From an uncultured Fluviicola sp. (GTDB lineage Bacteria; Bacteroidota; Bacteroidia; Flavobacteriales_D; Crocinitomicaceae), in contig NZ_CABHOL010000006.1 of assembly GCF_902168135.1 (NCBI RefSeq), forward strand, positions 1 to 64,000: DNA of 64,000 nt. The letters are read 5' to 3'. The translations under genes and the position numbers were made by a program. Positions 14,784-48,583 of this stretch are shown here, piece by piece (position 1 is the stretch's first letter; each line of letters starts with the position of its first letter). A model generated the notes under the pieces. The model was not told the origin of the DNA. It made no database searches and was given only the letters and a program-made list of their open reading frames with translations.

Positions 14784-14823
14784 AAAACAGTAGGGGCGCG
14801 ATTAATCGCGCCCCTACTGTTTT
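14784..14823. repeat. Dispersed palindrome, family A copy 1
   Basis: A perfect, gapless 40-bp palindrome centred between 14803 and 14804; each arm contains CAGTAGGGGCG. It lies 4 bp after the DinB-like stop codon. Related copies with a conserved GTAGGGG/CCCCTAC arm but different cores are at 18476, 26612, 46081 and 48555. It may also terminate transcription, since the right arm ends in TTTT. Confidence 0.9.
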
Positions 14824-14870
14824 CAAATAATCCCCTGTTCATTTCTTGGTTAATTAATTTTCATTACAAA

Positions 14871-14902
14871 TTGGTAATATAGCTGGAATACTTCTAAATT
14901 TG
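14871..14902 (+). promoter_or_regulatory. Promoter of the SPT-like gene
   Basis: TTG at 14871-14873 and TAAATTTG at 14895-14902 with 21-bp spacing, fitting TTG-N17-23-TAnnTTTG. Confidence 0.6.
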
Positions 14903-14954
14903 CAAACTCAACTGTTAACCAAAGATTCAATGGGTTAATGGAAAATGAACAAGT

Positions 14955-16223
14955 ATGGCAGATATTTTTGATAAAATTGAACGTAACCGTGGTCCTATCG
15001 GACAGTATTCCAAAGGAGTTCATGGTTATTTTACCTTTCCAAAGTTAGAAGGTGAATTAGGTAACAAAATGATTTTCCGCGGAAAAGAGTGTTTGGTTTG
15101 GTCTTTGAACAACTACCTGGGATTGGCAAACCACCCGGAAGTTCGTGAAGCAGATGCTAAAGCAGCTGAGCAGTACGGATTGGCTTACCCGATGGGAGCT
15201 CGTATGATGACAGGTCAGACAAGTGAGCACGAAAAATTGGAAAATGAGTTAGCTGAATTCATGGGGATGGAAGACTGTATCCTTTTGAACTTTGGATACC
15301 AGGGAATGGTTTCTGCAATCGACTGTTTGGTTGACCGCAGTGATATCATTGTTTATGACTCAGAAGCACATGCTTGTATCCTTGACGGAATGCGTTTACA
15401 CACTGGTAAGCGTTTCGTATTCCAACACAACGATATGGAAAGCTTTGATAAGCAAATGAAAAACGCTACACGTTTGGCAGAACAAACAGGTGGTGGTATT
15501 TTGGTTATCACAGAAGGAGTTTTTGGTATGGCCGGTGACCAGGGGAAATTGAAAGAGATCATTGAATTCCGTAAATCCGGAAAATATGACTTCCGTTTGT
15601 TCGTTGACGACGCTCACGGATTCGGAACATTGGGTAAAACAGGCCAGGGTGCCGGTGAAGCTCAGGGGGTTCAGGATGAGATCGACGTATTATTCGGAAC
15701 ATTCGCAAAATCCATGTCATCTATCGGTGGATTTATCTGTGCAAAAGAATCCATCATCGAATTCTTCCGTTACAACATGCGTTCTCAAATGTTTGCAAAA
15801 GCATTGCCTATCACCATTACAATCGGTGCACGTAAGCGCCTTGAGTTATTGCGTACACGTCCTGAATTGAAAGATAAATTGTGGGAGATCGCTGACGCAC
15901 TTCAATCAGGATTCAAAAATGCAGGATTCGATATCGGTGCAACAAATTCTCCTGTTACCCCGGTTTTCATGAAAGGAAACCTGGCAGAGGCTACGAATTT
16001 AACATTCGACCTTCGTGAAAATTACAATATTTTCTGTTCAATCGTTATTTACCCGGTAGTTCCGAAAGATGTAATCATGCTGCGCATTATTCCAACTGCT
16101 GCACATACTTTGGAAGATGTGAACTACACGATTGAAACATTCAAGACATTGAAAGAAAAATTAGATTCCGGTGCTTACAAAGCTGACGAGCTTGCAGCTG
16201 TTGAAGTAGACAGAAAGAAGTAA
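14955..16223 (+). CDS. Serine palmitoyltransferase-like alpha-oxoamine synthase
   Basis: A 422-residue PLP-dependent fold-type I enzyme that condenses an amino acid with an acyl-CoA and releases CO2. The PLP lysine is Lys252 in GTFAKSMSSIGGF; this GTF(S/A)KS context matches bacterial serine palmitoyltransferases better than KBL or BioF (TLGKALGG types). Asp218 and His221 (FVDDAHGFGTLG) contact the cofactor ring. The likely product is 3-ketosphinganine for sphingolipids, a characteristic membrane component of many Bacteroidota (family knowledge). A glycine C-acetyltransferase role cannot be excluded: no threonine dehydrogenase gene is next to it, and neither are other sphingolipid genes. Own promoter and terminator. 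Confidence 0.85.
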   Translation: MADIFDKIERNRGPIGQYSKGVHGYFTFPKLEGELGNKMIFRGKECLVWSLNNYLGLANHPEVREADAKAAEQYGLAYPMGARMMTGQTSEHEKLENELAEFMGMEDCILLNFGYQGMVSAIDCLVDRSDIIVYDSEAHACILDGMRLHTGKRFVFQHNDMESFDKQMKNATRLAEQTGGGILVITEGVFGMAGDQGKLKEIIEFRKSGKYDFRLFVDDAHGFGTLGKTGQGAGEAQGVQDEIDVLFGTFAKSMSSIGGFICAKESIIEFFRYNMRSQMFAKALPITITIGARKRLELLRTRPELKDKLWEIADALQSGFKNAGFDIGATNSPVTPVFMKGNLAEATNLTFDLRENYNIFCSIVIYPVVPKDVIMLRIIPTAAHTLEDVNYTIETFKTLKEKLDSGAYKADELAAVEVDRKK

Positions 16224-16247
16224 GATTTATTCCTTCAAAAATATACG

Positions 16248-16282
16248 AAAGCCTGATCCTGCAATTACGATCAGGCTTTTTT
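16248..16282 (+). terminator. Terminator of the SPT-like gene
   Basis: Stem AAAGCCTGATC / GATCAGGCTTT with a 10-base loop, then a T run, 25 bp after the stop codon. Confidence 0.88.
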
Positions 16283-16460
16283 AATATCCCCTGCCGCATA
16301 CTCTTATTACCGAACGGCTTCAATTAAACCTGCTTTCTCTGGTTATTAACTCAAGACATCTTTATTTCTCTGCCAATTTCCAGGTGAATTGCTAAATTTC
16401 AACCCCGAAACGAAACTTACATTTAAAGAATCAGTATATTCACTCTACCAAAACTAAACT

Positions 16461-17699
16461 ATGCTTAAGCAGCTTAAAAATGCGTTATCTCCAAAAGTCA
16501 TCAATGAAACCAATTTTGAAGATGAAACAAGGTTCATGCTGGCCTATAGGATGTCTCTATTTTTATCTATTTCCATTGGCGCATTAAGCATTATTCTTTT
16601 CATCTACTTCAGCCTGGCTATTGCATCCGTTACATTACTGGCTTTTTTCTCGATACTTATTGCTACCATTTACATTTACAGAACAGGCAGATTCCGTATT
16701 CCAACATTGATCTTTAGTATAATCGGTGCGGTTTGCTGTGCTGTTCCCTTATTTTTTATTCACAACCAGCCTCATTTCCTGAACGGATTTTGGATGACCA
16801 TTAATATCCTATTCGCGTTCATTGTTCTGGGAGTTCGATGGGGATTGACATTCACGCTATTTCATGCTGTCTGCCAGGCTGTCTATTATTATTATTTCCT
16901 GGATGAGCAAATGGATATTATGCGGAACCTTACCCACGAGCAATTAATTGCGACGATCATAAACAGCTGTGTATGTTTTGTTATTATCGGTTACCTGGGT
17001 TGGGAAAATATCCGTACCAATGAAGTAGGAAAAAACAGGCTCAATGAAGCACAGGATGTGCTGCAGGTCCAGTACAACATCATCTCGAAACAAAACGAGG
17101 AGAAAACAGTCATGTTGAAAGAAATTCACCACCGTGTGAAGAACAACCTCCAGATCATTACAAGTTTATTACGGCTTCAATCCAGGGAATTGGAAAACCC
17201 GGAAGCTATTGCCAAATTCAAAGACGCAACTCACCGGGTAATCGCCATGTCCATGATCCATGAGAAAATGTACCAAAGCGATCACCTTTCTACGCTGCAT
17301 TTACGCGAATACCTGCATGATCTCTCTTCCGACCTGGTCTCATCCTATCAATCCGGGTATCCGGTAAATCTGAAAATCGAATGCGATATCGATTCCATCG
17401 GGTTACGTTCCATCGTCCCGCTTGCATTGATCCTGAACGAGCTTATCTCCAATTCCCTGAAATACGCTTTTGACGATTATGAAAACTGTCTGATCTCTAT
17501 TTCTTTCATGCATTACCAGGGAAAAAAATGCAAATTGATCTACAAAGACAGCGGTACCTGGAAAGCGCCATCCAGACAAGGATCATTCGGTTTAGACCTC
17601 ATCGAATCATTGACGGACCAATTGGAAGGGACCATGGATTTGAAAACCTATCCTGAAACTATTTTCGACATTACGTTCAGTCCGCAGGAAGACCAGTAA
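16461..17699 (+). CDS. Membrane sensor histidine kinase (HisKA_2 type)
   Basis: A 412-residue kinase. Residues 30-180 hold about six hydrophobic helices (for example MSLFLSISIGALSIILFIYF) forming a membrane sensor with short loops. A short coiled coil (190-220) leads into a HisKA_2 dimerisation box, KEIHHRVKNNLQIITSLL, with the phosphoacceptor His223 or His224, then an HATPase_c domain with the N box LILNELISNSLKYAF. This class often lacks a dedicated neighbouring regulator and phosphorylates LytTR or other single response regulators; none is adjacent. The input signal is unknown. Confidence 0.88.
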   Translation: MLKQLKNALSPKVINETNFEDETRFMLAYRMSLFLSISIGALSIILFIYFSLAIASVTLLAFFSILIATIYIYRTGRFRIPTLIFSIIGAVCCAVPLFFIHNQPHFLNGFWMTINILFAFIVLGVRWGLTFTLFHAVCQAVYYYYFLDEQMDIMRNLTHEQLIATIINSCVCFVIIGYLGWENIRTNEVGKNRLNEAQDVLQVQYNIISKQNEEKTVMLKEIHHRVKNNLQIITSLLRLQSRELENPEAIAKFKDATHRVIAMSMIHEKMYQSDHLSTLHLREYLHDLSSDLVSSYQSGYPVNLKIECDIDSIGLRSIVPLALILNELISNSLKYAFDDYENCLISISFMHYQGKKCKLIYKDSGTWKAPSRQGSFGLDLIESLTDQLEGTMDLKTYPETIFDITFSPQEDQ

Positions 17700-17765
17700 T
17701 TATCAATTATGAATGACTGAATTATCAAGAGAATTCACATTCTTGACAATTAATAATTGATAATT
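17698..17765. repeat. AT-rich nested inverted repeat, family B copy 1
   Basis: Outer arms AATTATCAATTAT (17698-17710) and ATAATTGATAATT (17753-17765) are perfect complements; an inner pair TCAAGA / TCTTGA lies between them. It begins at the kinase stop codon and its last base is the first base of the marC stop codon. Copies at 51924-51999 and 53460-53536. Confidence 0.85.
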
Positions 17766-18391
17766 TATTTGATTTTCAAAATTTCTTGTACCGCCGAAGA
17801 AACGTACTCTACTCCTATTGCAATGACAATAAAACCTATGATCCGTGAAATGGCGTTTATCCCGGAAGCTCCAAGGGCTTTTACGATGAAATGCGAAGTT
17901 CTTAAAATAACATAGATTGCCAGGCAGACAGCAATAATAGCGCAAACCGAAAGCAAATGCTGTTCTTTATTGTCGAATGTTTGATTATAAGTAATCAGTA
18001 AAGAGATAGATCCCGGACCGGCGAGCATCGGAATCGCAAGTGGAGTCAGTGAAACTTCCGAACGCGTCTGCATATCTTCCTGAACACTCGCTTTTTTCAT
18101 TCCCTTATGCTTGGTAAAAGACCCGGTAAGCAACGCAAAACCCGAGGTAGCAATAATCAATCCGCCAGCTACACGCAAGGAATTGATACTGATCCCAAAA
18201 AAATTCAACACATATTTTCCGGCAAAAAAAGAGATCAATAAGATGATACACACATTGACAGAGGTCCAAAGCGACGTTTTATCCCGGTTGTGTTTGGTAT
18301 CGTCTTTCGTCAATCCAACGAAAACGGGAACGGTTCCCAAAGGGTTTAAAACTGAGAATAATGCGGCGAAAACACTGATAAAAAGTTCCAT
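17765..18391 (-). CDS. MarC-family integral membrane protein
   Basis: A 208-residue inner-membrane protein starting at the ATG at 18391 (MELFISVFAALFSVLNPLGT); an upstream TTG at 18403 is unlikely. Six hydrophobic helices and the family signature NPLGTVPVF at residues 16-24, plus the LTPLAIPMLAGPGSISLLIT segment, identify UPF0056/MarC. The family was once linked to multiple antibiotic resistance but its function is not established. The C-terminus ends ILKIK, with the last codons next to an AT-rich repeat identical in arrangement to that after the thioesterase gene at 51999. Confidence 0.92.
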   Translation of the reverse strand: MELFISVFAALFSVLNPLGTVPVFVGLTKDDTKHNRDKTSLWTSVNVCIILLISFFAGKYVLNFFGISINSLRVAGGLIIATSGFALLTGSFTKHKGMKKASVQEDMQTRSEVSLTPLAIPMLAGPGSISLLITYNQTFDNKEQHLLSVCAIIAVCLAIYVILRTSHFIVKALGASGINAISRIIGFIVIAIGVEYVSSAVQEILKIK

Positions 18392-18475
18392 TTTTTTGCG
18401 CAAAATTCCCCATATTCCGGGGCTTTGACGTTAGGTGAATATTAATTGTTGGTTACGAATGTAATTCATGGCTCT

Positions 18476-18505
18476 GGTAGGGGAGAAAAATTTTTCACCC
18501 CTACC
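18476..18505. repeat. Dispersed palindrome, family A copy 2
   Basis: A gapless 30-bp inverted repeat, GGTAGGGG...CCCCTACC with an A5T5 centre and one mismatch. Unlike the other copies it lies in the promoter region between divergent genes (marC and the methyltransferase). Confidence 0.85.
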
Positions 18506-18552
18506 GGGACAAATTCGAAATTCGAATGACTATTTTCGTAAAAACACATCCC

Positions 18553-19212
18553 ATGGAGAAAGATCAATTAGCAGAACTCGCTTCTCAATTAAGCCATCCG
18601 TCCGGAGAAAAAGGCAATGAAATAGCTCAAATGATGAATGAAACCAATATCGGTATGACTAAAAATGCCATTCTAAACCTGGATCTTAGCTCCAATGATT
18701 CCGTTTTGGAATTAGGCCATGGAAATGCCGGTCACGTAGAATTTCTATTTGCACAATGCGAGAATATCCGCTATACCGGCCTGGAGATCTCTACCCTGAT
18801 GAACAGAGAGGCACAGCTGTTAAACGAATCCTTCGTAACTTCTGAAAAAGCTTCTTTCACCTTATACGACGGGGAAAAAATTCCTTTTAAAGACAATGAA
18901 TTCAACAAGTTACTTACTGTAAACACGCTGTATTTCTGGAAAAATCCAATGGAGTTACTGACTGAACTGTCCCGGGTTCTAAAACCCCAGGCACTTTTTT
19001 CACTCACATTCGCCCATCGGAGCTTTATGGAAACGCTTCCTTTTACTCCCTTCGGCTTTACGCTGTATAATCCCGATGAAGTCCTGGAGCTGGTGAACCA
19101 AAGTGCATTCAGCCTTCATAAGGAAGATGCACAGACAGAAGTCGTGCTTACAAAAACCGGTGAATCAGTAGCACGTCAATTCTCTACCTTAGTATTGAAA
19201 AACCATAAGTAA
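18553..19212 (+). CDS. Class I SAM-dependent methyltransferase
   Basis: A 219-residue protein from the ATG at 18553 (MEKDQLAELASQL). The upstream in-frame ATG at 18526 would add only nine unusual residues and overlaps a TATTTTCG promoter-like word. SAM-binding motif I is VLELGHGNAGHVEFLF (family pattern hD/ExGxGxG), followed by an acidic residue after strand 2 (TGLEIS), and post-motif regions LYDGEKIPFKDNEFNKLLTVN and LTELSRVLKPQALFSLTF typical of UbiE/Methyltransf_11 enzymes. The substrate is unknown. It is just upstream of, and collinear with, the OsmC cluster but separated by 41 bp of a TTTGAAC-rich repeat. Confidence 0.88.
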   Translation: MEKDQLAELASQLSHPSGEKGNEIAQMMNETNIGMTKNAILNLDLSSNDSVLELGHGNAGHVEFLFAQCENIRYTGLEISTLMNREAQLLNESFVTSEKASFTLYDGEKIPFKDNEFNKLLTVNTLYFWKNPMELLTELSRVLKPQALFSLTFAHRSFMETLPFTPFGFTLYNPDEVLELVNQSAFSLHKEDAQTEVVLTKTGESVARQFSTLVLKNHK

Positions 19213-19251
19213 TTTGAACTCTTTGAACTTTTAAACCTTTTAAACGTTTCT
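19213..19251. repeat. TTTGAAC/TTTAAAC low-complexity repeat, copy 1
   Basis: The short gap between the methyltransferase and OsmC genes consists almost entirely of the words TTTGAAC, TTTAAAC and CTTTTAAAC. A similar, partly self-complementary block is at 31764-31817 before the hybrid kinase gene. Confidence 0.5.
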
Positions 19252-19253
19252 TT

Positions 19254-19724
19254 ATGAAAGAACACACATACGAAGCAACTGTTATCTGGACAGGAAACAA
19301 AGGAACCGGAACATCTGACTATGCAGCATACGGAAGAGAATTTACCCTTCAAATCCCCAACAAACCGGATTTACTCTGTTCAGCGGATGTACCATTTCGG
19401 GGCGATAAAACCAAACACAACCCGGAAGATTTTTTCCTGGCATCACTTTCCAGCTGCCACATGTTATGGTATTTCCACTTGTGTGCCGATGCTGGGATCC
19501 GGGTTGTCGAATATACCGACGAACCGATTGGAACAATGATCCAGGATCCGAACGGAGGCCGCTTCACTTCCGTTACATTGCGCCCGAAAGTAGTGATTAC
19601 AGATCCTTCTAAAATAAATCTGGCAAACAGCCTGCACCACGAAGCCAATAAACAATGCTTCATTGCAAACTCCTGCAACTTCAGGGTTACCCATGAACCT
19701 ACTTGTACTTCGAACAATGCTTGA
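19254..19724 (+). CDS. OsmC-family peroxidase-like protein
   Basis: A 156-residue OsmC/Ohr-fold protein. The two redox cysteines expected for hydroperoxide reduction are present: Cys68 in LSSCHMLW and Cys141 in ANSCNF. Their sequence context resembles the third OsmC subgroup more than Ohr. It heads a compact cluster: its stop codon overlaps the start of the DUF1272 gene (ATG at 19717), which overlaps the HPP gene, which overlaps the RpoA-CTD-like gene. The likely role is reduction of organic or lipid peroxides in the cytoplasm (family knowledge). Confidence 0.9.
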   Translation: MKEHTYEATVIWTGNKGTGTSDYAAYGREFTLQIPNKPDLLCSADVPFRGDKTKHNPEDFFLASLSSCHMLWYFHLCADAGIRVVEYTDEPIGTMIQDPNGGRFTSVTLRPKVVITDPSKINLANSLHHEANKQCFIANSCNFRVTHEPTCTSNNA

Positions 19725-19950
19725 GTTGAGACCAACATGTGAAAGATGTTATAAAGAATTACCTCCGGAAAGTACCGAAGCAATGATCTGTAGTTTCGAA
19801 TGTACATTCTGCATTAGCTGTGTGGAAAAATACCCCGAAAAAAAATGCCCAAATTGTGGCGGAGAATTCCAAAAAAGACCAATAAGGCCGAAACATTTGC
19901 TCGAAAAATTTCCGGCGAGCACTGACTTTTTTTTCAAACCAAGAGATTAA
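19717..19950 (+). CDS. DUF1272 small zinc-ribbon protein
   Basis: A 77-residue protein starting at the ATG at 19717, eight bases inside the OsmC gene; the longer reading from 19663 is unlikely because the family begins MLELRPTCERC. Eight cysteines in CxxC-type pairs (CERC, CSFEC-TFC, CISC, CPNC) are consistent with two structural zinc sites in a RING-like/treble-clef arrangement. The family function is unknown. Translational coupling on both sides (overlap with OsmC; TAATG junction with the HPP gene) argues that it acts in the same process. Confidence 0.88.
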   Translation: MLELRPTCERCYKELPPESTEAMICSFECTFCISCVEKYPEKKCPNCGGEFQKRPIRPKHLLEKFPASTDFFFKPRD

Positions 19951-20573
19951 TGCCAATGAAAAAATACAAATCCATCAGAAAAGTCCGCTATGTACTCTAC
20001 AAAGAAACCCTGGTTGATTTCAAAGAGCATCTCTGGACCTTCATCGGATCCTTCTTCGGTATCGGGCTGATCGCTTTTATACAGTCTCATTCACTGGATC
20101 ATTTATCAAACGTTTTCCTGATAGGATCTTTCGGTGCGAGCAGTGTGTTGATCTACGGTGCAATCCAGAGTCCGCTGGCACAGCCCAGAAACCTCGTCGG
20201 CGGACATATTATTTCTGCATTTATCGGTGTTTGCGTTTATAAATTGTTACCCAATCCGGACCTGGTATGGGTAGCCGCACCGCTTGCAGTAAGTATTTCA
20301 ATCATTGCCATGCAGATGACCAAAACACTTCATCCTCCGGGTGGAGCAACCGCATTGATAGCCGTTATCGGAACACCGAAAGTCAAAGCACTTGGTTTTG
20401 TATACGTATTGTCGCCTGTACTTTCTGGAGTAATGATCCTGCTATTAGTTGCAATCATAGCCAATAATCTTACAAAGAACAGAAGCTATCCGACCAACAG
20501 CAGGCTTACAAAATATATCAAACCCCGTAAAATTCGTTTAAGAGATGTCACAAAAAACAGAAAGAATTTGTAA
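19950..20573 (+). CDS. HPP-family integral membrane protein
   Basis: A 207-residue membrane protein with four to five hydrophobic helices and the family signature LHPPGGATALIAV at about residues 127-139. Characterised HPP members in plastids and cyanobacteria have been associated with nitrite transport; whether this applies here is inference. The start codon overlaps the previous stop (TAATG at 19948-19952); the second Met (19956) is an alternative. A basic N-terminus (KKYKSIRKVRYVLYK) and C-terminus suggest cytoplasmic ends. The last 29 bp overlap the downstream gene. Confidence 0.9.
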   Translation: MPMKKYKSIRKVRYVLYKETLVDFKEHLWTFIGSFFGIGLIAFIQSHSLDHLSNVFLIGSFGASSVLIYGAIQSPLAQPRNLVGGHIISAFIGVCVYKLLPNPDLVWVAAPLAVSISIIAMQMTKTLHPPGGATALIAVIGTPKVKALGFVYVLSPVLSGVMILLLVAIIANNLTKNRSYPTNSRLTKYIKPRKIRLRDVTKNRKNL

Positions 20574-20832
20574 AAGGGGACACCGCTATTTCAAAAGTTC
20601 GGATTGTCCGACCTGCCCGGTTTGCGAAGAAGAACGAAAAGCAGAAGCCGGGATTTTTGCTGTCCTTGCCGCTCCCGCAAGAAGAGCAATGGCAAGTCAT
20701 GGAATAAATACCTTAGAACAATTAGCCAATTACAAGGAAAAAGAAATTCTTCAATTCCATGGGATCGGAAAAACCAGCATCCCCGCTCTCAAAAATCTTT
20801 TGGCTGAGAGAGGACTTTCTTTTAAGGCATAA
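20545..20832 (+). CDS. RNA polymerase alpha-CTD-like protein with N-terminal zinc ribbon
   Basis: A 95-residue protein. Residues 9-28 hold a Cys/His cluster (CKRGH, then CPTCPVC) that looks like a zinc ribbon. Residues 45-92 resemble the helix-hairpin-helix C-terminal domain of RpoA: APARRAMASHGINTLEQLAN followed by GIGKTSIPALKNLLAERGL. The true alpha subunit is much longer, so this is a stand-alone alphaCTD-like module and may bind DNA or RNA polymerase. It overlaps the HPP gene by 29 bp and ends the OsmC cluster. Confidence 0.82.
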   Translation: MSQKTERICKRGHRYFKSSDCPTCPVCEEERKAEAGIFAVLAAPARRAMASHGINTLEQLANYKEKEILQFHGIGKTSIPALKNLLAERGLSFKA

Positions 20833-20852
20833 TTTGAATTATATTTATCATT

Positions 20853-20930
20853 GAAAGACTATTAGGCAAAAGACTCAAGACATAAGACTTGAATTTGTCT
20901 TTGGTCTTATGTCTAACATCTTTAGTCTTT
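20853..20930. repeat. Intergenic inverted repeat AGACATAAGAC
   Basis: Arms AGACATAAGAC (20878-20888) and GTCTTATGTCT (20904-20914) are perfect complements, with outer AAAGACT / AGTCTTT pairs. The right arm contains a spurious in-frame ATG (20909) for the next gene. Confidence 0.75.
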
Positions 20931-20935
20931 TTAAA

Positions 20936-21307
20936 ATGAAAACTTTCGCCAACGTAGATGAATACATAAATGATTTTGAAGGAGAAACCAGGGAACGATT
21001 AATTGCTACCCGGAAACTCATCCTGGAAACAGCCCCGCAAGCGCAGGAATCTATCTCCTATGGCATGCCGGCTTATAAAACAAATGGAAAACCATTGGTT
21101 TATTTCGGCGGATACAAATCACACATAGGTTTTTATGCTACGCCGACAGGTCACCAGGCGTTTGAAAAAGAGCTTTCCAAATACAAACAGGGAAAAGGCT
21201 CGGTACAATTCCCTTTGGATGAACCGCTTCCCGCAAAGTTGATCAAAGAGATCGTTCTGTTCCGCATGGCTGAAAACCAGGCAAAGTACGGAAAAGGGAA
21301 GAAATAA
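20936..21307 (+). CDS. DUF1801 (YdhG/YjbR-CyaY-like) protein
   Basis: A 123-residue protein. The start at 20936 (MKTFANVDEYINDF) is preferred because the in-frame ATG at 20909 falls within an intergenic repeat. The conserved features are PQAQESISYGMPAYKTNGKPLVYFGGYKSHIGFY and a C-terminal SVQFPLDEPLP-KEIV region, typical of DUF1801, an alpha/beta fold of unknown activity sometimes associated with iron or DNA binding. No operon partner is apparent. Confidence 0.87.
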   Translation: MKTFANVDEYINDFEGETRERLIATRKLILETAPQAQESISYGMPAYKTNGKPLVYFGGYKSHIGFYATPTGHQAFEKELSKYKQGKGSVQFPLDEPLPAKLIKEIVLFRMAENQAKYGKGKK

Positions 21308-21470
21308 CGTTAGTCCGTCACAGCGGAAAGACTTCGGGCAGTAGCCACAAACTGCTTTACATGAAGGAAAAGACAAGCTCCTCATTCAGAAGGAATCATT
21401 AATTTCACACAAGAAAATCAGCAGCAGCTGATAGATACAAGCCGGCTCAGCCGGTAAATACCAAGTGATT

Positions 21471-23090
21471 ATGAAACACCTGTTTTTCTTTTATTCTTTG
21501 CTGCTTGCAGCCACATCATTCGGTCAATTCACCCATGCTGATTCTTTGCGCGGGACTTATGGAGATTCCAGGAATTGGTGGGATTTGAAGCATTACGATC
21601 TGAGTGTAACCTTTGATATAGACCAAAAAGAAATCCGTGGAAAAAACACCATTCAATTTGCAGTTTCGGAACTCCCTGAAACAGGAAAGCAAGAGCTTCA
21701 GATTGATCTCCAGGAACCCATGATACTCGATAGCGTACTTTCAGGGAAGCAGCATAAAAAATTACCTGTTCGAAAAGACGGAAATGCCTACTACATATCG
21801 AATGTTGTAAACAGCGAACAAAACAACGAGATCACTGTTTACTTCCACGGAAAACCGCGTGCAGCAAAACATGCACCCTGGGACGGAGGAATCGTTTGGG
21901 CAAAAGATCACAACGGCTCACCCTGGGTTTCTATTGCCTGCCAGGGACAGGGAGCAAGTGTCTGGTTTCCGTGCAAAGATTCTCAATTCGATGAACCTGA
22001 TAACGGTGTCGTGATGCATTATACTTGTCCGGGTGAATTGGTCTGTGTCAGTAACGGGACCTTTTTGGGGAAAGAAGTCAACAACTTAAAGCAATCCACC
22101 TATTCCTGGAAAGTAAGCAATCCGATCAATAATTATTGTATGATCCCGTATATCGGTGATTATGTAAACATGCACGAACACTTCACGGGAGAAAAAGGAA
22201 ACCTGGAAATCGACTATTGGGTTTTGAGAGGAAATGAAGAAAAAGCAAAAAAACAATTCGGAGATGCGCCAAAAACCCTGAAAGCACTGGAATACTGGTT
22301 TGGGCCTTATCCTTTTTATGAAGATGGTTATAAATTAGTTGAAGCTCCTTACCTTGGAATGGAACACCAAAGTGCCGTTGCCTACGGAAATGGTTTCAAA
22401 AATGGTTATATGGGTTCTGATCTGAGCAATACCGGTGTCGGACTGAAATGGGATTTCATCATTGTCCATGAGAGCGGCCACGAATGGTACGGGAATAATA
22501 TCACCTCTAAAGATATCGCAGACATGTGGATCCATGAAGGGTTCACCTGTTACAGCGAAACCCTTTTTACCGATTACTGGTTCGGAAAGGAAGATGCTGA
22601 TAAATATTGCCGGGGCCTTCGTAAAAACATCCTGAATGACCGGCCTATTATCGGTCCGTACGGAGTAAATACCGAAGGAAGCGGTGACATGTATTACAAA
22701 GGAGCAAATATGCTTCATACAATCCGTACAATTTACGGCAACGACTCACTTTTCCGGATGATGCTTCGTAAAATGAATGCCGATTTCTATCATCAAACCG
22801 TTACAACACAGCAAGTAGAACAATTCATGTCAAAAGAACTCGGAATGGATCTTTCAAAAGTGTTTGATCAATACCTGCGCACGAAAACTCCACCGACACT
22901 TCAATTAAAAGTTTCCAAAAGGAAAGTTAAATTCCGCTGGGTAAATTGCGTAGAAGGTTTCAATATGCCGATCATGAATGGAAACCAAAAGTTGGTATGC
23001 ACTGCTAAATGGAGCTCATACGTTATCGGAACTGATCATCCCTTCAATTTGAATCCGAACCTGTACCTTCTAAAAAAAGAACAGAAGTGA
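21471..23090 (+). CDS. Exported M1-family zinc metallopeptidase
   Basis: A 539-residue exported protein starting at the ATG at 21471 (MKHLFFFYSLLLAATSFGQ, a signal peptide); a GTG two codons earlier is less likely. An N-terminal beta-saddle domain (about 25-210) precedes the catalytic domain. The zinc motif HExxH-X18-E is complete: His335, Glu336, His339 and Glu358 (HESGHEWYGN ... IHEGFTCYSE). The exopeptidase loop is GMEHQS in place of the usual GxMEN, as in other short bacterial M1 enzymes. The C-terminus is short, with no T9SS domain, suggesting a periplasmic aminopeptidase that trims oligopeptides. Confidence 0.93.
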   Translation: MKHLFFFYSLLLAATSFGQFTHADSLRGTYGDSRNWWDLKHYDLSVTFDIDQKEIRGKNTIQFAVSELPETGKQELQIDLQEPMILDSVLSGKQHKKLPVRKDGNAYYISNVVNSEQNNEITVYFHGKPRAAKHAPWDGGIVWAKDHNGSPWVSIACQGQGASVWFPCKDSQFDEPDNGVVMHYTCPGELVCVSNGTFLGKEVNNLKQSTYSWKVSNPINNYCMIPYIGDYVNMHEHFTGEKGNLEIDYWVLRGNEEKAKKQFGDAPKTLKALEYWFGPYPFYEDGYKLVEAPYLGMEHQSAVAYGNGFKNGYMGSDLSNTGVGLKWDFIIVHESGHEWYGNNITSKDIADMWIHEGFTCYSETLFTDYWFGKEDADKYCRGLRKNILNDRPIIGPYGVNTEGSGDMYYKGANMLHTIRTIYGNDSLFRMMLRKMNADFYHQTVTTQQVEQFMSKELGMDLSKVFDQYLRTKTPPTLQLKVSKRKVKFRWVNCVEGFNMPIMNGNQKLVCTAKWSSYVIGTDHPFNLNPNLYLLKKEQK

Positions 23091-23105
23091 ATCGGTAAAA
23101 TTGCG

Positions 23106-23113
23106 TAAGTTTG
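23106..23113 (+). promoter_or_regulatory. Candidate -7 element for the choice-of-anchor L gene pair
   Basis: TAAGTTTG fits TAnnTTTG, 18 bp before the ATG at 23132; no good -33 TTG was seen. Confidence 0.4.
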
Positions 23114-23131
23114 TAGCTACATTTTTACAGC

Positions 23132-24133
23132 ATGAAATACTTTTACCACCTTATCATCTGCCTTTTACCGGTACTTTCCTTCGGTCAATTAACTTTAGGC
23201 GGAAGTGATCCTCAGGATATCTCAACTATTTTGAGTGGCTCGGGAGTTACTATTTCCAATGTGCAACACAATGGAACACTGGATGCTATTGCATATTTCT
23301 CTGCTAACACCTATAATATGCCGTTCCAGTCGGGGTTTTTAATGACTACTGGATCAAAATTTTGTGCTGTCGGGCCAAATGACACTGCCTTTGCAAGTAT
23401 AAAGAACAATGCCGCGGGTCTTAATCTTGCAGATAACGCATTAAATATTATTTCTTACGATGCCTCTGTCATTACTTTTGATGCAGTGCCAAGTGGAAGC
23501 ACTCTGAAAATCAATTACATATTTGGATCAGAAGAATTTGGATATAGCGGTTTAACAATTAACGATGCTTTCGGAATTTTTATTTCCGGACCTGGAATAA
23601 GCGGAACACAGAATATAGCCCGTTTACCAAATCAAAATACCATTACTATATCCAATTTAAAAGCAAATAGCCAATACCTTGTAAACAATGGAAATGGAAC
23701 CCAGGCTCCTTACAACACTTCTGATAACTATCTGCAATACAATCAATTAAGCATTCCGTTAACAGCTTCGATAAATGATCTTTTTCCCGGTTCCCCCTAC
23801 CACATCATCCTGGTAATTGCTGATGACCGGGATGCAGTTTTTGATTCCGGAGTTTTTATAGAAGAAGGCAGTGTTACTGCCAGTATCGATGAAAATACAC
23901 TGGATAACTTTGTAAACATCACGTATAATTCCTCCAACCAGCAGGCAACCATCCAGGTTACTGACTATCCCGGAAACTTGACTTACTCGGTTCTGGATTT
24001 GTCCGGAAAAACAATGACTCAATCAACCATAGCGGAAAGCACCACTATCGACCTGAGCAATTATGCATCCGGAATGTACCTCATCCATGTAGAAGGAAGC
24101 AACGGTCAGGTTACCAGGAAAGTAATTCGCTGA
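23132..24133 (+). CDS. T9SS-sorted choice-of-anchor L domain protein, paralogue 1
   Basis: A 333-residue secreted protein: signal peptide (MKYFYHLIICLLPVLSFGQ), one choice-of-anchor L domain (about 20-250; landmarks SGFLMTTGS, INYIFGSEEF, DAFGIFISGPG) and a C-terminal T9SS type A sorting domain (DLSNYASGMYLIHVEGSNG to the end KVIR). The domain is a beta-rich module common in surface and adhesin-like proteins of Bacteroidota; a binding or structural role at the cell surface is likely, the ligand unknown. The next gene, 21 bp downstream, is its close paralogue. Confidence 0.88.
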   Translation: MKYFYHLIICLLPVLSFGQLTLGGSDPQDISTILSGSGVTISNVQHNGTLDAIAYFSANTYNMPFQSGFLMTTGSKFCAVGPNDTAFASIKNNAAGLNLADNALNIISYDASVITFDAVPSGSTLKINYIFGSEEFGYSGLTINDAFGIFISGPGISGTQNIARLPNQNTITISNLKANSQYLVNNGNGTQAPYNTSDNYLQYNQLSIPLTASINDLFPGSPYHIILVIADDRDAVFDSGVFIEEGSVTASIDENTLDNFVNITYNSSNQQATIQVTDYPGNLTYSVLDLSGKTMTQSTIAESTTIDLSNYASGMYLIHVEGSNGQVTRKVIR

Positions 24134-24154
24134 AATTAATTCTTAAAAACAACT

Positions 24155-25186
24155 ATGAAAATGAAACATCTTTACCACCTTCTTCCGGCATTTTTGCCAT
24201 TCTTTTCATTTGGACAATTAAACCTGGGCGGAAATGATCCACAGGATTTGGTCGCACACGCACTTTCCGGGTCAGGAGTTAGTATTTCCAATGTTCAATA
24301 CACCGGTACACCGGATGCTATTGCCTATTTTTCATCCAATAATATGATAAATATGCCCTACAATTCCGGTTTTTTAATGACTACCGGATCAAAATATTTT
24401 GCTGTGGGGCCAAATGATACGATCAATGCTGGTATTGACAATCAAACTCCGGGACTTGCTCTTTTTAATAACTTCTTTAATGCAACTTCTTACAACGCTT
24501 CAGTTATTGAATTTGATCTTGTTCCGAGTGGAAACATTCTGCACATCAATTACACCTTTGCTTCGGAGGAATATACCGGTCCGAATATTACCCCGGCTTA
24601 TGCCTTTAACGATGCTTTCGGAATCTTCATTTCCGGTCCCGGAATAACTGGCACACAGAATATAGCCCGCTTACCGAATACCAGCCCCGTTTCAACCAGA
24701 ACAATTAATCCTTCGACAAACAGCCAATACTTTGTTTACAATGGAAATGGTTCTGAAGCACCTTACGACGGTTCTGATCAATACCTGCAATACAACGGTC
24801 TAAGCATTCCATTAACAGCTTCCGCACCCAATCTCACACCCGGTTCTTCCTATCACATCATCCTGGTCATTGCAGATGCTGGAAATGCAGTTCGTGATTC
24901 GGGAGTATTCCTGGAAGAAGGAAGTATTACAGCAAGTATTGACGAAAATACACTGGACAACTTTGTAAGCATCGTTTACAACTCTTCCAACCAGCAGGCA
25001 ACTATCGAGGTTACAGAATACCAGGGCAATCTAACTTATTCGGTTGTCGACCTATCCGGAAAAATCATGGTGCAATCCAAAATAACCGAAACAACAGCAG
25101 TTGATCTAAGCAATTATACTTCAGGAATGTACCTCATTCGTGTAACCGGAAGCAACGGTCAAATTATTAAAAAAGTAATTCGCTGA
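24155..25186 (+). CDS. T9SS-sorted choice-of-anchor L domain protein, paralogue 2
   Basis: A 343-residue protein with the same architecture as its upstream neighbour: signal peptide, choice-of-anchor L domain, T9SS sorting domain ending IKKVIR. By eye roughly two thirds of residues are identical, with long shared runs such as ASIDENTLDNFV and SGPGI-GTQNIARLPN; differences are small insertions (SNNMINMP, GPNITPAYAFN) in surface loops. The pair arose by tandem duplication and is probably co-transcribed. An alternative start is the ATG at 24161. Confidence 0.88.
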   Translation: MKMKHLYHLLPAFLPFFSFGQLNLGGNDPQDLVAHALSGSGVSISNVQYTGTPDAIAYFSSNNMINMPYNSGFLMTTGSKYFAVGPNDTINAGIDNQTPGLALFNNFFNATSYNASVIEFDLVPSGNILHINYTFASEEYTGPNITPAYAFNDAFGIFISGPGITGTQNIARLPNTSPVSTRTINPSTNSQYFVYNGNGSEAPYDGSDQYLQYNGLSIPLTASAPNLTPGSSYHIILVIADAGNAVRDSGVFLEEGSITASIDENTLDNFVSIVYNSSNQQATIEVTEYQGNLTYSVVDLSGKIMVQSKITETTAVDLSNYTSGMYLIRVTGSNGQIIKKVIR

Positions 25187-25268
25187 CCGGTTATTCGTTT
25201 TTTCCTTTAAAGAGTCATTTTGTTAATTAATTCTCGCTCCGGGCTTTAAAAGACCGCTTTGATTTTGG

Positions 25269-25276
25269 TACTTTTG
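25269..25276 (+). promoter_or_regulatory. Candidate -7 element for the flavin reductase gene
   Basis: TACTTTTG fits TAnnTTTG, 15 bp before the ATG at 25292. Confidence 0.4.
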
Positions 25277-25291
25277 TAGAAATTTACAAGC

Positions 25292-26185: not shown

Positions 26186-26207
26186 AATAGTAAATACCCG
26201 TAGAAAT

Positions 26208-26603
26208 ATGTTTAAAATATCCGGAATCTTAAAGGTGAAGAATGATACAGTTCAAGTATCAGAGAAGTTCTCAAAGAGAGAATTTGTTTTAACTGATAAT
26301 GCAAGTATGTATCCTCAGGACATCTTGTTCCAGTTAACTCAGGATAAGTGCAGTTTGATTGATGGATTCAATACTCAGGATCAAATTGAAGTGTCTTTCA
26401 ACTTAAGAGGACGCGAATGGACTAGCCCTCAGGGAGAAGTGAAATACTTTAATACCCTGGAAGCATGGAGAATTGAAAAAGTGGGAGCTGCTTCCATGGG
26501 AGGTGGAATTCCTGCCGGAGGACCAACAGCAATGAACTTAGATCCAATTGCTACTCCGAGTGCTTCTACAGCACCAAGTGATGATGATGATTTACCATTC
26601 TAA
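26208..26603 (+). CDS. DUF3127 protein with SSB-like acidic tail
   Basis: A 131-residue protein. The N-terminal 90 residues match DUF3127 (GILKVKNDTVQVSEKFSKRE, FNLRGREWTSPQGEVKYFN), predicted to form an OB-like beta barrel. A Gly/Pro/Ala/Ser-rich linker leads to the C-terminus SDDDDLPF. That tail closely resembles the SSB protein-interaction tip (the true SSB in this window ends SPNDDLPF). The arrangement suggests a single-stranded nucleic-acid-binding or SSB-partner-recruiting role (inference). It is followed directly by a family A palindrome. Confidence 0.85.
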   Translation: MFKISGILKVKNDTVQVSEKFSKREFVLTDNASMYPQDILFQLTQDKCSLIDGFNTQDQIEVSFNLRGREWTSPQGEVKYFNTLEAWRIEKVGAASMGGGIPAGGPTAMNLDPIATPSASTAPSDDDDLPF

Positions 26604-26611
26604 ATAATTAA

Positions 26612-26659
26612 AAAACAGTAGGGGTGAATCCCGTATGTACGGGACACCCCTACTGTTTT
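26612..26659. repeat. Dispersed palindrome, family A copy 3 (nested hairpin)
   Basis: Outer 15-bp arms AAAACAGTAGGGGTG (26612-26626) / CACCCCTACTGTTTT (26645-26659) enclose a second perfect hairpin CCCGTA-TG-TACGGG (26630-26643). The outer arms share CAGTAGGGG with copy 1. It lies 8 bp after the DUF3127 stop codon and contains a spurious ATG (26635) in frame with the next gene. Confidence 0.9.
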
Positions 26660-26670
26660 ATCTAAAATCT

Positions 26671-27679: not shown

Positions 27680-27699
27680 GCTTTTCCTTAAATAATCAT

Positions 27700-27737: not shown

Positions 27738-27761
27738 ATTAGGAATCACAAAATTTTAGCT

Positions 27762-42606: not shown

Positions 42607-43608
42607 ATGGCTGATTTTGTTCTACTAATAAGCGATTGGTACAGACTAAATGCGCGTGAGCTCCCCTGGAGGAACACAAAAAACCCGTATTTCATCTGGT
42701 TATCGGAGGTCATTTTGCAGCAAACAAGAGTCGACCAGGGCATGAATTATTACCTGAAATTTATCGAAAATTATCCTGTTTTGAATCAACTTGCAGACGC
42801 CGATGAAGCATCCGTTTTAAAACTTTGGCAGGGATTGGGGTATTATTCCAGGGCACGGAATTTACATAAAACAGCACAACAGGTCAGGGACGAATATGGC
42901 GGAGAATTCCCGAAAACCTACGCTGAGATCATCCAATTGAAAGGAATCGGCCCATACACAGCTGCTGCCATTTCATCTTTTGCATTTGATCTTCCTCATG
43001 CTGTTGTAGACGGAAATGTTTACCGGGTGCTTAGTCGTTATTTCGGGATTGACGAACCGATAGACTCCACACAAGGAAAGAAAACCTTCCAAAACCTGGC
43101 TGATTCGTTGATTCCGGAATCAGATCCGGCTCTTTTCAACCAGGCAATCATGGAATTCGGAGCCATTCAGTGCACTCCCAACAACCCGGACTGCAATTCC
43201 TGCGTTCTAAATCAAAGCTGTGCAAGTGCATTTAATGCTGATCTTATAAAAAAGCTTCCTGTCAAAAAAGGAAAAACCAAAGTTCGCAAACGCTATTTTC
43301 ACTACCTGCACATAGAGAAAGAAGGCGAAATTGCATTGGATCAGCGCACAAATAAAGATGTTTGGGAGAAATTATACGAATTTCCGATGATAGAAAGCGA
43401 AAGCGCGGATATCCCTTTCGAATTCAAAGACTCCGCCGATCTATGCTATCAAACCAAACATATACTGAGCCATCAGCACATTTACGCCTATTTCTACAAA
43501 ACCGACCGGCCTGAAATAGAAGGATTGGAATTTCGTTTCGTGGAGAAAAGCCAGCTGGAGGATTATCCGATTCACCGGTTGATGGAAAAATACCTGGAGT
43601 CAAGATAA
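42607..43608 (+). CDS. mutY: A/G-specific adenine glycosylase MutY
   Basis: A 333-residue DNA glycosylase that removes adenine mispaired with 8-oxoguanine. Visible features: RELPWRNTKNPYFIWLSEV with the catalytic Glu before ILQQTRVDQG, the helix-hairpin-helix GIGPYTAAAISSFAF, the catalytic Asp in VVDGNVYRV, the [4Fe-4S] cluster Cys set (CTPNNPDCNSCVLNQSC, spacing C-X6-C-X2-C-X5-C) and a C-terminal NUDIX-like 8-oxoG recognition domain. The HU gene is divergent upstream; ssb, gldE and gldD follow downstream after a repeat. Confidence 0.96.
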   Translation: MADFVLLISDWYRLNARELPWRNTKNPYFIWLSEVILQQTRVDQGMNYYLKFIENYPVLNQLADADEASVLKLWQGLGYYSRARNLHKTAQQVRDEYGGEFPKTYAEIIQLKGIGPYTAAAISSFAFDLPHAVVDGNVYRVLSRYFGIDEPIDSTQGKKTFQNLADSLIPESDPALFNQAIMEFGAIQCTPNNPDCNSCVLNQSCASAFNADLIKKLPVKKGKTKVRKRYFHYLHIEKEGEIALDQRTNKDVWEKLYEFPMIESESADIPFEFKDSADLCYQTKHILSHQHIYAYFYKTDRPEIEGLEFRFVEKSQLEDYPIHRLMEKYLESR

Positions 43609-43627
43609 TTACCAATTCCAAATGCCT

Positions 43628-43680
43628 AATTACGAATTTTGATGATTTCATTCGTAATTCGTAATTCGAAATTCGTAATT
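43628..43680. repeat. AT-rich inverted repeat AATTACGAATTT
   Basis: Arms AATTACGAATTT (43628-43639) and AAATTCGTAATT (43669-43680) with related ATTCGTAATT words between them. It resembles family B in size and AT content but uses a different word. It contains a spurious ATG (43639) in frame with ssb. Confidence 0.75.
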
Positions 43681-46080: not shown

Positions 46081-46110
46081 AGTAAGGGCGAAAAATTTTT
46101 CACCCTTACT
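46081..46110. repeat. Dispersed palindrome, family A copy 4
   Basis: A gapless 30-bp inverted repeat AGTAAGGG...CCCTTACT with an A5T5 centre and one mismatch, 3 bp after the gldD stop. Arm sequence is one base diverged from GTAGGGG in copies 1-3; its centre is the same as copy 2. Confidence 0.85.
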
Positions 46111-46172
46111 GACTAATTAATTGGAGTATAGTCTATAAGAATCATTATTTTTATGGGAAACTATACTCTATT

Positions 46173-48536
46173 ATGAAAACAACTCTCCTATTATTTTCAC
46201 TCCTGTTTTCCTGTTGGGGATTTTCACAGGAATATTCGCGGGCAAAAATTTTCACCGACTCCGATGGCCTCCAAACCCTTGCGGAACTTGGAATCGGTAT
46301 TGACCATGGAGTCATAAAGCGCGGAACATTTTTTATTTCAGACTTCTCCAAAAATGAAATAAAGCAAATTCGGGATGCCGGATTTGAAGTTGAGATCCTT
46401 ATTCCGGACGTAAAGGCTTATTATGTAAACCAAAACATCGGTTTAGACCCGAATTCCACTTCGGTCGAAAAAAATACTACCTGCCCCCCTTCATCCGGTT
46501 CAAGTACATTCATTCCGGAAGTTCCTTCCAATTTCAATTTAGGAACTATGGGCGGATTTTACACTTACCAGGAATTCATTGCTGAGATAGATGCAATGGC
46601 GGCTCAATACCCAAACCTGATTTCCGTAAAAGACACTATCAATAACTTTTTGAGTATTGAAAACAGACCTATTTACTGGATGCGTTTAAGTGATAATCCG
46701 AACTCTGATGAACCGGAACCGGAAGTTCTTTACACTGCCATTCATCACGCAAGAGAACCTAACTCCTTATCTGAAGTAATCTTCTACATGTGGTATCTGC
46801 TCGAAAACTACAATACAAGCGACGAGATCAAATACCTGATCGATAACACCGAAATGTACTTCGTTCCGATGATCAATCCTGACGGATATATCTACAATCA
46901 AACCACGGATCCCGCAGGAGGCGGTATGTGGCGAAAAAACCGCAGACCAAACAGCGGTGGAAGTTACGGGGTCGATTTGAACAGGAATTACTCTTATGGC
47001 TGGGGAACAACCGGAACATCCACTAACCAGGGGAATGATACTTATTGCGGAACAGCTCCCTTTTCTGAGCCCGAAACACAAGCCATCAAATGGTTTTGCG
47101 AAAACCGTGATTTCCAATACGCCTTTAATGCACATACTTATGCCAATGACATCCTCTTCCCAATCGGAACAACCACCAATGAGTTTGCGGTAGACCATAA
47201 TTATTTTGATGCTTTTACGCACCACATGGTACAATACAACGGATATGAAAACAAAAAATCATCTGCACTTTATCCGGCTTCAGGAGATTCAGACGATTAC
47301 ATGTACAAAGTGGACACTGTTGTAAAGCCAAAAATCTTCGCCATGACACCGGAAGTAAGTAATACCAGCGGTGGGTTCTGGCCTGCAGCGAATGAAATTA
47401 CCGGAATCTGCCAGGACATGGTTTTCCCAAACCTCATCTTATCTCATTTAACACACCGGTATTTGGTGGTGGAAGATGTTGATCCTGCGATGGTAGCAAC
47501 AACAACGGGCAACTTCAATCACAGTGCATATCGTCTTGGCCTTGAAAACGGCCCGGTAACTGTCAGCATCACTCCTATTTCCGGAATACAGTCTGTAGGC
47601 CCTTCAAGCATACACAACCTTGCAATTATGGGAACTCAAAACGGAGCAATTTCTTATGTTCTTAATCCGGCTATCCAATTCGGTGACGAGATCAAATATG
47701 TTTTGAATACGGAATACACCGGCTGGACAAAACACGATACTATTGTAAAGACTTTCGGAAGTATTACTTCTCAATTTATCGACGAAGCGAATAGTGCTGT
47801 AAACTGGACCGGAAGCTGGGCTACTACTAATGCAACTTATGTTTCACCAAGTAATTCGTTTACTGATTCTCCGGGGGCAGATTATCCAAACAACGTTACA
47901 AGAATTTACCAGTTCAATAACACCATTGACCTGACCCATGTAACGGAAGCAATGGTAAAGTTCTATGCGAAATGGGAAATTGAAGCGGATTACGATTACT
48001 GTCAATTCCAGGTTTCCACTGATGGCGGAACAAGTTGGATCGGTCAATGCGGGAATTATACTGTTCCGGGAACAAGTGCTAATGGCTCTGTCCAACCAAA
48101 CAATCAACCGGTTTATGAAGGAACGGAAGCAAACTGGGTATTGGAGGAAATCAACCTGAGTGATTATATCGGCGATAGTATCAAAGTGCGTTTCATTCTA
48201 AAATCTGACGGCGGAACAAGAGGAGACGGGTTCTACTTTGATGATTTTGAAGTACTTTACAATATAGATGTTACCGGTCTTGCAGAGAATGACAAAGAAT
48301 TATTCCACCTGGTACCGAATCCGGCAAGTTCTTATGTAAATATTATTTTTGACCAGACGGTTCAGAACGGCTCTATCGAAATTGTAAATACGAGCGGAGA
48401 AACGGTTTCGACTCATTCAGTGGAAAGTCCGAAGGTTGAAGTCCGAATGGATAAATTACCGGCAGGTGTTTATTATGTGCGCTACATCGGTTCTACAGAA
48501 CAGAAATCTCCTGTGAAATTGGTGGTGATTCATTAG
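46173..48536 (+). CDS. T9SS-sorted M14 zinc carboxypeptidase
   Basis: A 787-residue secreted protein. Signal peptide (MKTTLLLFSLLFSCWGFSQ); propeptide-like region (20-120); M14 catalytic domain (about 125-430) with the zinc motif HHAREPNS (HxxE), PMINPDGYIYN, the substrate-binding NRNYSYGWG, the third zinc His (FNAHTYAN) and the catalytic Glu in MTPEVSN; beta-sandwich region with DYDYCQFQVSTDGGTSWIG, characteristic of immune-inhibitor A/MAM-like domains; T9SS sorting domain (LVPNPASSYVNIIF ... to KLVVIH). It probably degrades extracellular peptides. Confidence 0.93.
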   Translation: MKTTLLLFSLLFSCWGFSQEYSRAKIFTDSDGLQTLAELGIGIDHGVIKRGTFFISDFSKNEIKQIRDAGFEVEILIPDVKAYYVNQNIGLDPNSTSVEKNTTCPPSSGSSTFIPEVPSNFNLGTMGGFYTYQEFIAEIDAMAAQYPNLISVKDTINNFLSIENRPIYWMRLSDNPNSDEPEPEVLYTAIHHAREPNSLSEVIFYMWYLLENYNTSDEIKYLIDNTEMYFVPMINPDGYIYNQTTDPAGGGMWRKNRRPNSGGSYGVDLNRNYSYGWGTTGTSTNQGNDTYCGTAPFSEPETQAIKWFCENRDFQYAFNAHTYANDILFPIGTTTNEFAVDHNYFDAFTHHMVQYNGYENKKSSALYPASGDSDDYMYKVDTVVKPKIFAMTPEVSNTSGGFWPAANEITGICQDMVFPNLILSHLTHRYLVVEDVDPAMVATTTGNFNHSAYRLGLENGPVTVSITPISGIQSVGPSSIHNLAIMGTQNGAISYVLNPAIQFGDEIKYVLNTEYTGWTKHDTIVKTFGSITSQFIDEANSAVNWTGSWATTNATYVSPSNSFTDSPGADYPNNVTRIYQFNNTIDLTHVTEAMVKFYAKWEIEADYDYCQFQVSTDGGTSWIGQCGNYTVPGTSANGSVQPNNQPVYEGTEANWVLEEINLSDYIGDSIKVRFILKSDGGTRGDGFYFDDFEVLYNIDVTGLAENDKELFHLVPNPASSYVNIIFDQTVQNGSIEIVNTSGETVSTHSVESPKVEVRMDKLPAGVYYVRYIGSTEQKSPVKLVVIH

Positions 48537-48554
48537 GCAGAACGAAATAAATCA

Positions 48555-48583
48555 GTAGAGGTGAGTTGCGACTCACCTTCTAC
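48555..48583. repeat. Dispersed palindrome, family A copy 5 (degenerate)
   Basis: GTAGAGGTGAGT (48555-48566) pairs with ACTCACCTTCTAC (48571-48583) with a one-base bulge and a TGCG loop. 19 bp after the M14 stop codon. Confidence 0.7.

Follow-up and report, generated by a model that had tools for sequence, protein, structure and literature searches.

Background

What kind of element are the short palindromes that stand behind stop codons in a contig of an uncultured Fluviicola sp. (NZ_CABHOL010000006.1), and why do they remain there? The window, i.e. the whole stretch of 64,000 nucleotides that we analysed (positions 1-64,000), belongs to a genome (here G000) of 4,379,353 bases in 56 contigs that is 99.87% complete. 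A sequence-only reading of the window had reported five palindromes sharing a GTAGGGG arm at 14784, 18476, 26612, 46081 and 48555, where we also located them, and had taken them for a repetitive extragenic palindromic (REP)-like element, possibly working as a terminator. Our preferred reading, to which we give a probability of roughly 0.72, is that they are double-foot REPs spread by a REP-associated tyrosine transposase (RAYT) and maintained as terminators, often acting in both directions; mobility and termination are what we infer here. The identity as double-foot REPs follows from the number of repeats, from their ends and span and from their linkage to RAYT genes. Placement, tails and interchange with ordinary terminators point to terminators or 3'-end hairpins at gene ends, and the linkage together with the known biology of the family argues for RAYT-driven movement.

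Results

Number and architecture of the family

The search for GTAGGGG-N(5-30)-CCCCTAC gave 58 matches in the 4.38-Mb genome, whereas the reversed pattern used as control gave none. This genome-wide arm search, which the sequence-only reading had proposed, excludes the frequency of random hairpins. The architecture was studied in a sample of 837 kb (19% of the genome, window included). When strong palindromes were detected there without a sequence criterion, 27 of 68 had paired GTAG/CTAC, and these spanned 28 bp in 24 cases, 35 bp in two and 36 bp in one. With the ends fixed as GTNG/CNAC, 25 of the 30 hairpins of 20-45 bp were exactly 28 bp long, and three first-order Markov shuffles contained no such hairpin at 28 bp. 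Of the 26 strict 28-mers, 11 have the core GATTAATC and 15 an A/T-rich one. They differ from each other at pairs 5 to 10, where the two partners have mostly changed in step; that pairs 1, 2 and 4 do not vary was not used, since the scan for strict 28-mers itself requires GT.G/C.AC. A longer class of palindrome has a second hairpin nested within it; the example in the window is 26612, and there are others elsewhere in the genome. The end variants GTAA, GTGG, GTTA and GCAG occur in the genome as well. Pairing often extends beyond GTAG in sequence that is specific to the copy yet matched, often A-rich before and T-rich after. The claim that arms are conserved over cores therefore stands in part: ends, length and pairing are constant across the family, but the bases at arm positions 5-8 differ between copies, mostly in step with the bases they pair with, and a few recurrent classes account for the cores.

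An approximate arm scan was compared with the reversed sequence (21 against 15 reversed in C15, 3 against 9 in G452a), which we judged a poor control, since reversal leaves a palindrome palindromic. The controls relied on are the exact-pattern reversal, the shuffles and the palindromes detected without a sequence criterion.

Exact 28-bp members of the family were also seen in seven stretches of six IMG/VR contigs (L091-L097), whose phage origin is only putative. In genomes that belong to another family of the phylum, identical double-foot palindromes are closely spaced (G295:C17:57-153 and G217:C83:44402-45091), and this tight spacing suggests local amplification.

Placement relative to genes

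Placement was read from 44 copies in the sample, namely the 26 strict ones and 18 further copies chosen by eye, with genes taken from our own codon-score calls; two copies lie at stretch edges. The 42 placed copies occupy convergent gaps in 12 cases, tandem gaps in 26 and divergent gaps in four, compared to 6.0, 24.8 and 11.1 expected by intergenic length (p=0.005). The distance to a neighbouring stop is at most 35 bp in 43 of 50 (median about 20 bp), and in tandem gaps 21 of the 26 copies lie closer to the stop upstream of them than to the start downstream. Among the 38 tandem and convergent copies the next 10 nt contain 5.4 T on average, compared to 3.7 at 313 copy-free gene ends (p=3e-7). 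None of the strict copies lies inside a gene, and one further member (C15:33187) overlaps a called gene. The test of G-U versus A-C mismatches on the transcribed strand included badly framed extra sites and its result was not used. A further class of inverted repeat, made of TTCAA/TTGAA words, was seen at gene ends of the same genome (C15:157931-157980 and C24:204581-204622).

Association with RAYT genes

As reference for a RAYT resembling subclass 2.4 we used a protein of 159 amino acids (aa) from G452 (L108 type), and a profile, A1, was built from ten such proteins. The reading frame of the G452 protein ends within GTAGGGGTAGCTCGCGAGCTACCCCTAC, where the TAG of GTAG serves as stop codon. At 1e-10 it matches in 160 of the 395 genomes of the phylum: in 33 of 38 genomes with at least three exact palindromes versus 127 of 357 others (Fisher p 1.5e-9, relatedness uncorrected). 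Applied to 14 chosen genomes, A1 has clear members in G404, G452, G423 and G439; in G273 and G280 it matches fragments at contig edges, in G185 it matches in part, and in G371 the matches are weak. A subclass-2.4-like RAYT is thus present in 4/4 other same-genus genomes tested. The consensus motifs of A1 are MPNHFH, WQRS and YIExNP, with DH for NH or WH for WQ in some rows, and the placement of these proteins in subclass 2.4 is provisional.

The palindromes are concentrated at these genes. A double-foot palindrome lies inside the RAYT gene or within 300 bp of it in 11 of 29 loci (2/13 in a first RAYT set, 9/16 in the A1 profile set) versus none of the 19 loci with a different Y1 protein; most genomes of the A1-profile set and most of those behind the 19 control loci were chosen as same-genus or palindrome-rich, and the control loci were not sorted by subclass. 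In terms of density, the 29 RAYT genes and the 300 bp on either side of them, 29.0 kb together, contain 18 palindromes, and the remaining 63.7 kb of these loci contain one. The near-RAYT count used 16 of 30 A1-profile loci. Those left out are L183 (the same gene as L108), L201 (merged with L190), L209 (a fragment beside L187) and the weak matches (E 1.6e-6 to 0.005) L195, L196, L202, L203, L205-L208 and L210-L212; palindromes do occur near L202 and L211. Several of the strict-negative RAYT loci bear degenerate relatives of the palindrome.

Palindromes flank RAYT genes or lie within them in the same-genus genomes G404, G452, G439 and G423 and in other families. The G404 RAYT has a member with the GATTAATC core on either side, namely GTAGGCACGCGATTAATCGCGTGCCTAC on one and the GTGG variant of it on the other; G000 carries GTAGGCACGCGATTAATCGCGTGCCTAC at C15:490001 and the GTGG variant near the Y1 gene of C36 (L196). 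The RAYT reading frame of G439 contains a GATTAATC member, and L175 has three identical 28-mers before, in and after the RAYT gene, with the insert lying between the protein motifs.

L108 (71.6 bits) and L189 (59.1 bits) match the NCBIfam RAYT model NF047646 with E far under 1e-10 but stay below its curated cut-off of 80 bits; the focus of the model may be on other RAYT subclasses. With a presence in 295 of the 395 genomes, NF047646 is also too common to be very informative. PF01797 fails to detect the relevant RAYT subclass in several genomes.

The genome of the window itself has two Pfam Y1 matches, both on other contigs, and the family is absent within 300 bp of either. The statement that the window holds no transposase accordingly stands for the Y1 family, the one examined. 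A cognate TnpA-REP elsewhere in the genome, which the sequence-only reading had suggested looking for, was not found in G000, though one is found in all four relatives. L016, a RAYT of G000 (100 bits with NF047646), was considered as partner and rejected since its flanking hairpins differ, and the second Y1 protein scores under the RAYT cut-off. G000:C34:85286, which matches the DNA after the G404 RAYT, was rejected as an empty RAYT site since the upstream genes differ.

Two further groups of palindromes were observed near Y1 genes. In L043 (C15:507417-517481 of G000), some 10 kb of DNA hold four GTAGGC/GTTAGGC palindromes that have the GATTAATC core and CCCC-type outer arms; the series begins about 2 kb away from a RAYT whose flanking hairpins are of another type. 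Three genomes of the genus, among them G000, have a CAAGGGGATTAATCCCCTTG palindrome in or beside a Y1 match (L017 1476-1495, L105 1476-1501, L106 1722-1741), the L017 copy being inside the coding frame.

Copies in the window

Palindromes of the window. Coordinates are window positions; no strand is assigned to any feature.
14784..14823, double-foot palindrome, perfect 40-bp dyad with the 28-bp unit at 14790-14817, GATTAATC core and A/T flanks
18476..18505, 28-bp palindrome at 18477-18504 with an A5T5 core and without a T-rich tail, between divergent MarC and methyltransferase genes
26612..26659, 36-bp member at 26618-26653 with a nested CCCGTA...TACGGG hairpin and AAAACA/TGTTTT flanks
46081..46110, 28-bp member with a GTAAGGG arm, 3' of gldD
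48555..48583, 29-bp degenerate member with GTAGAGG, a bulge and a TGCG loop, 3' of the M14 peptidase gene
48612..48644, hairpin of ordinary type resembling an intrinsic terminator, directly downstream of the 48555 copy

Four copies were said to lie within 20 bp after a stop codon, and the gaps are indeed 4 bp (14784), 8 bp (26612), 3 bp (46081) and 18 bp (48555). The preceding open reading frames end at 14779, 26603, 46077 and 48536 and match the families DinB, DUF3127, GldD and M14 peptidase, respectively; the fifth copy, 18476, lies between divergent open reading frames, as reported. The shared GTAGGGG arm is exact in three of the five only, 46081 having GTAAGGG and 48555 GTAGAGG. Tested against the ends GT[AG]G/C[TC]AC, the copies at 14790, 18477 and 26618 fit, 48555 fits with a bulge, and 46082 deviates (GTAA). 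When folded as RNA, each of the five copies beats all 200 of its own shuffles (z -4.3 to -9.5).

Orthologous sites

For 28 family sites (window and C15) counterparts were sought through their flanks in the same-genus genomes G404 and G452, with main blocks of about 69-87% DNA identity. The compared stretches cover counterparts of part of C15, and presence or absence was judged by eye; 10989, C15:139464 and C15:407072, which came from the approximate scan, were dropped as not belonging to the family. Of these sites 18 could be placed in G404, but one spans a 2-kb gap that defied interpretation; the palindrome is present in 10 of the other 17 and absent in seven. Two or three of the 10 retained sites have another core, and C15:240150 differs in all three species. 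In G452 the palindrome is present in two of the 16 sites placed. The reverse comparison, from 13 copies of the relatives, shows members in G404 where G000 has AT-rich or TTCAA-type inverted repeats.

Further counterparts came from loci with homologues of one window protein. Seven of 15 such loci were used, covering the sites 14784, 18476 and 26612, at which L224 and L225 could not be placed; protein identity is 86% for Fluviicola chungangensis (L220) and 97% for a Flavobacteriales metagenome-assembled genome (L219). At 14784 the 40 bp are identical in L220, a member with another core is found in Fluviicola L222, and AT-rich inverted repeats are found in L219, L221 and G404. At 18476 a degraded copy with broken arms is seen in L219 only, and none in L220-L223, G404 and G452. 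At 26612 there is an ordinary hairpin with a T-rich tail in L219, L220, L222 and L223, ordinary terminators are present in G404 and G452, and L221 has a 28-bp member with a different core. G404 has an orthologous copy at 46081, in which one pair has changed on both arms and another no longer pairs, and no copy was seen in G404 at 48555.

Nine orthologous comparisons allowed the arms to be followed pair by pair. Out of 117 pairs 23 changed: nine on both sides with Watson-Crick pairing kept, three from non-pair to pair, 10 from pair to non-pair and one between non-pairs. The co-variation of arms that the sequence-only reading had proposed to test is thus seen in 9/23 changed pairs, compared to about 0.9 expected if the sides were independent, for sites that were picked by eye for a comparable visible core, a choice that favours pairing. 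The paired changes fit selection on the hairpin; template switching or arm conversion could be an alternative without selection.

AT-rich inverted repeats of the AATTATCAATTATGAAT and AATTCGTAATTCG types also occur in the window (17697-17765, 43607-43680, 51924-52002 and 53458-53538). Sequences like the AATTATCAATTATGAAT type recur in G404 and G452, and related repeats replace GTAG palindromes at orthologous sites. L223 (CP034120.1), a complete genome titled Glaciecola amylolytica, encodes the window protein used to find these loci at 75% identity and conserves the neighbouring window DNA; it is probably a misnamed Fluviicola relative.

Discussion

Comparison to known systems

Judged by its sequence, the family is one of double-foot REPs (GTAG...CTAC, 28 bp) of TnpA-REP subclass 2.4, i.e. 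RAYT group 4, and the suggestion of a REP-like element is supported by the genome-wide number, the 28-bp architecture and the RAYT association in relatives. Double-foot REPs of Bacteroidetes and their RAYTs are already published. In the available passages of Quentin et al. 2018 (PMC6006769), the double-foot REPs of this subclass have, as here, GT[AG]G at one end and the complementary C[TC]AC at the other, and stand beside, and in frame inside, RAYT genes with HuH, W and Y motifs in Cyanobacteria and Bacteroidetes; unlike them, the genome of the window is without such a RAYT as far as found. Those passages are silent on the strict 28-bp span, on paired arm drift and on exchange with ordinary terminators, which are features seen here. 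The GTAG-tagged REP families of Di Nocera et al. 2013 (PMC3733652), described in the passages available for Proteobacteria, Cyanobacteria, Chloroflexi and the PVC (Planctomycetes, Verrucomicrobia and Chlamydiae) group but not for Bacteroidetes, are alike in the GTAG end, the palindrome of 20-40 bp, the preference for convergent or co-directional gene gaps and the RAYT association, but their GTAG is unpaired and at one end only. REPINs (Bertels and Rainey 2011, PMC3116915) are likewise short mobile DNA based on REPs, but they are doublets according to the passages of PMC6006769, whereas here the units are single double-foot ones. Finally, intrinsic (Rho-independent) terminators share the hairpin shortly after a stop with T-rich DNA next, and occur at the orthologous site of 26612; what sets the present palindromes apart is that they form a repeat family whose ends and length are characteristic.

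Proposed mechanism

A RAYT of subclass 2.4 would have spread copies through the genus, presumably by cutting and rejoining single-stranded hairpins as the biology of the family would suggest. Copies would persist mostly within about 35 bp after stops, where the hairpin, A-rich before and T-rich after, may act as an intrinsic terminator or as an mRNA 3'-end hairpin; we propose that they survive near stops because the hairpin works there in this way. Termination at gene ends would often be bidirectional. The hairpin at such a gene end is replaceable: one species may have an ordinary terminator where another has a double-foot REP, with one core or another, and the arms within a site tend to change together, which keeps the pairing. 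The terminator role that had been thought possible fits this interchange with ordinary terminators at orthologous sites.

Evidence against and other explanations

Several results weigh against the reading of RAYT-spread, terminator-like REPs. On the side of termination, the four divergent-gap copies have a mean of 3.0 T in the next 10 nt and no clear T tail, and the 48555 copy is followed by an ordinary terminator. A terminator consensus scan of 12000-31000 omits 14784 and 26612 and places one minus-strand site overlapping 18476, its total of 18 sites being at chance level (19.1 in shuffles). The 10 breaks among the changed pairs also count here. On the side of mobility, five of the 38 palindrome-rich genomes (G000, G185, G273, G280 and G371) have no L108-type match at 1e-10, and A1 gave no convincing subclass-2.4-like RAYT in G000, the best match there (0.005) being to another Y1 protein. 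No strict double-foot palindrome was found near 18 of the 29 RAYT loci, only 2/13 being positive in the first set. In addition, the compared sites, where intergenic DNA is too diverged for edges, showed neither a clean empty site nor a duplicated target. The RAYT of G000 seems to be lost or not assembled, which makes present mobility in this genome doubtful. REPs without their own RAYT are known from other genomes according to passages of PMC3733652 and PMC6006769, and the missing RAYT hence lowers present mobility, not membership in the family.

If the palindromes were selfish REPs without a useful function, the RAYT would prefer hairpin-rich or T-rich gene ends, other insertions would be purged, and the terminator look would be that of the target. 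RAYT linkage and the in-frame insertions inside RAYT genes agree with this, as do the tail-less copies in divergent gaps and the ordinary terminator beside 48555. However, pairing is often maintained through paired arm changes at orthologous sites, and the copies at 26612 replace the terminator of the relatives and do not adjoin it, and we regard the explanation as unlikely, though as one to be reckoned with. Multiplication of ordinary intrinsic terminators by recombination or gene conversion, without any transposase, would agree with the terminator-like position and folding and with the lack of a cognate RAYT found in G000; since a terminator needs neither a 28-bp span nor GTAG ends, and since the linkage in relatives is to one RAYT subclass, it appears distinctly improbable. 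It is harder still to see the palindromes as two-fold symmetric binding sites of a dimeric DNA-binding protein, although perfect or near-perfect DNA dyads of fixed length would suit such a protein well: whole cores swap at a single site, and placement tracks gene ends and not promoters. Chance GC-rich hairpins have next to no probability. Taken by itself, GTAGGGG shows no more than a mild enrichment in the window (7 seen versus 2.5 expected, with 4 of 100 shuffles reaching 7), and a seven-base arm alone is weak evidence within one window, but the genome-wide count is 58 versus 0 and 25 hairpins stand at 28 bp versus none in three shuffles.

Conclusions

Exchange of double-foot REPs with ordinary terminators at orthologous gene ends was not found described in the open-licence literature, namely passages of PMC3733652, PMC6006769, PMC12306157 and PMC13289151, which is weak evidence of absence; a literature search for the arm letters gave none on the subject among the matches listed, and the in-frame insert peptide had no match. 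More tentatively, and with the balance still on the side of doubt, a transposase-linked REP family may supply the genus with interchangeable terminators, gene ends serving as docking sites at which ordinary terminators, double-foot REPs of differing core and AT-rich inverted repeats would take each other's place from one close species to another, and at which a mobile element would rewrite the ends of transcription. To our knowledge, transcription termination has been little studied in this phylum. A part for REPs at the ends of mRNAs has been suspected for a long time, and the question is whether they serve a use there or are just tolerated. Because the genus has orthologous gene ends that hold an ordinary terminator or a REP depending on the species, this question becomes directly testable.

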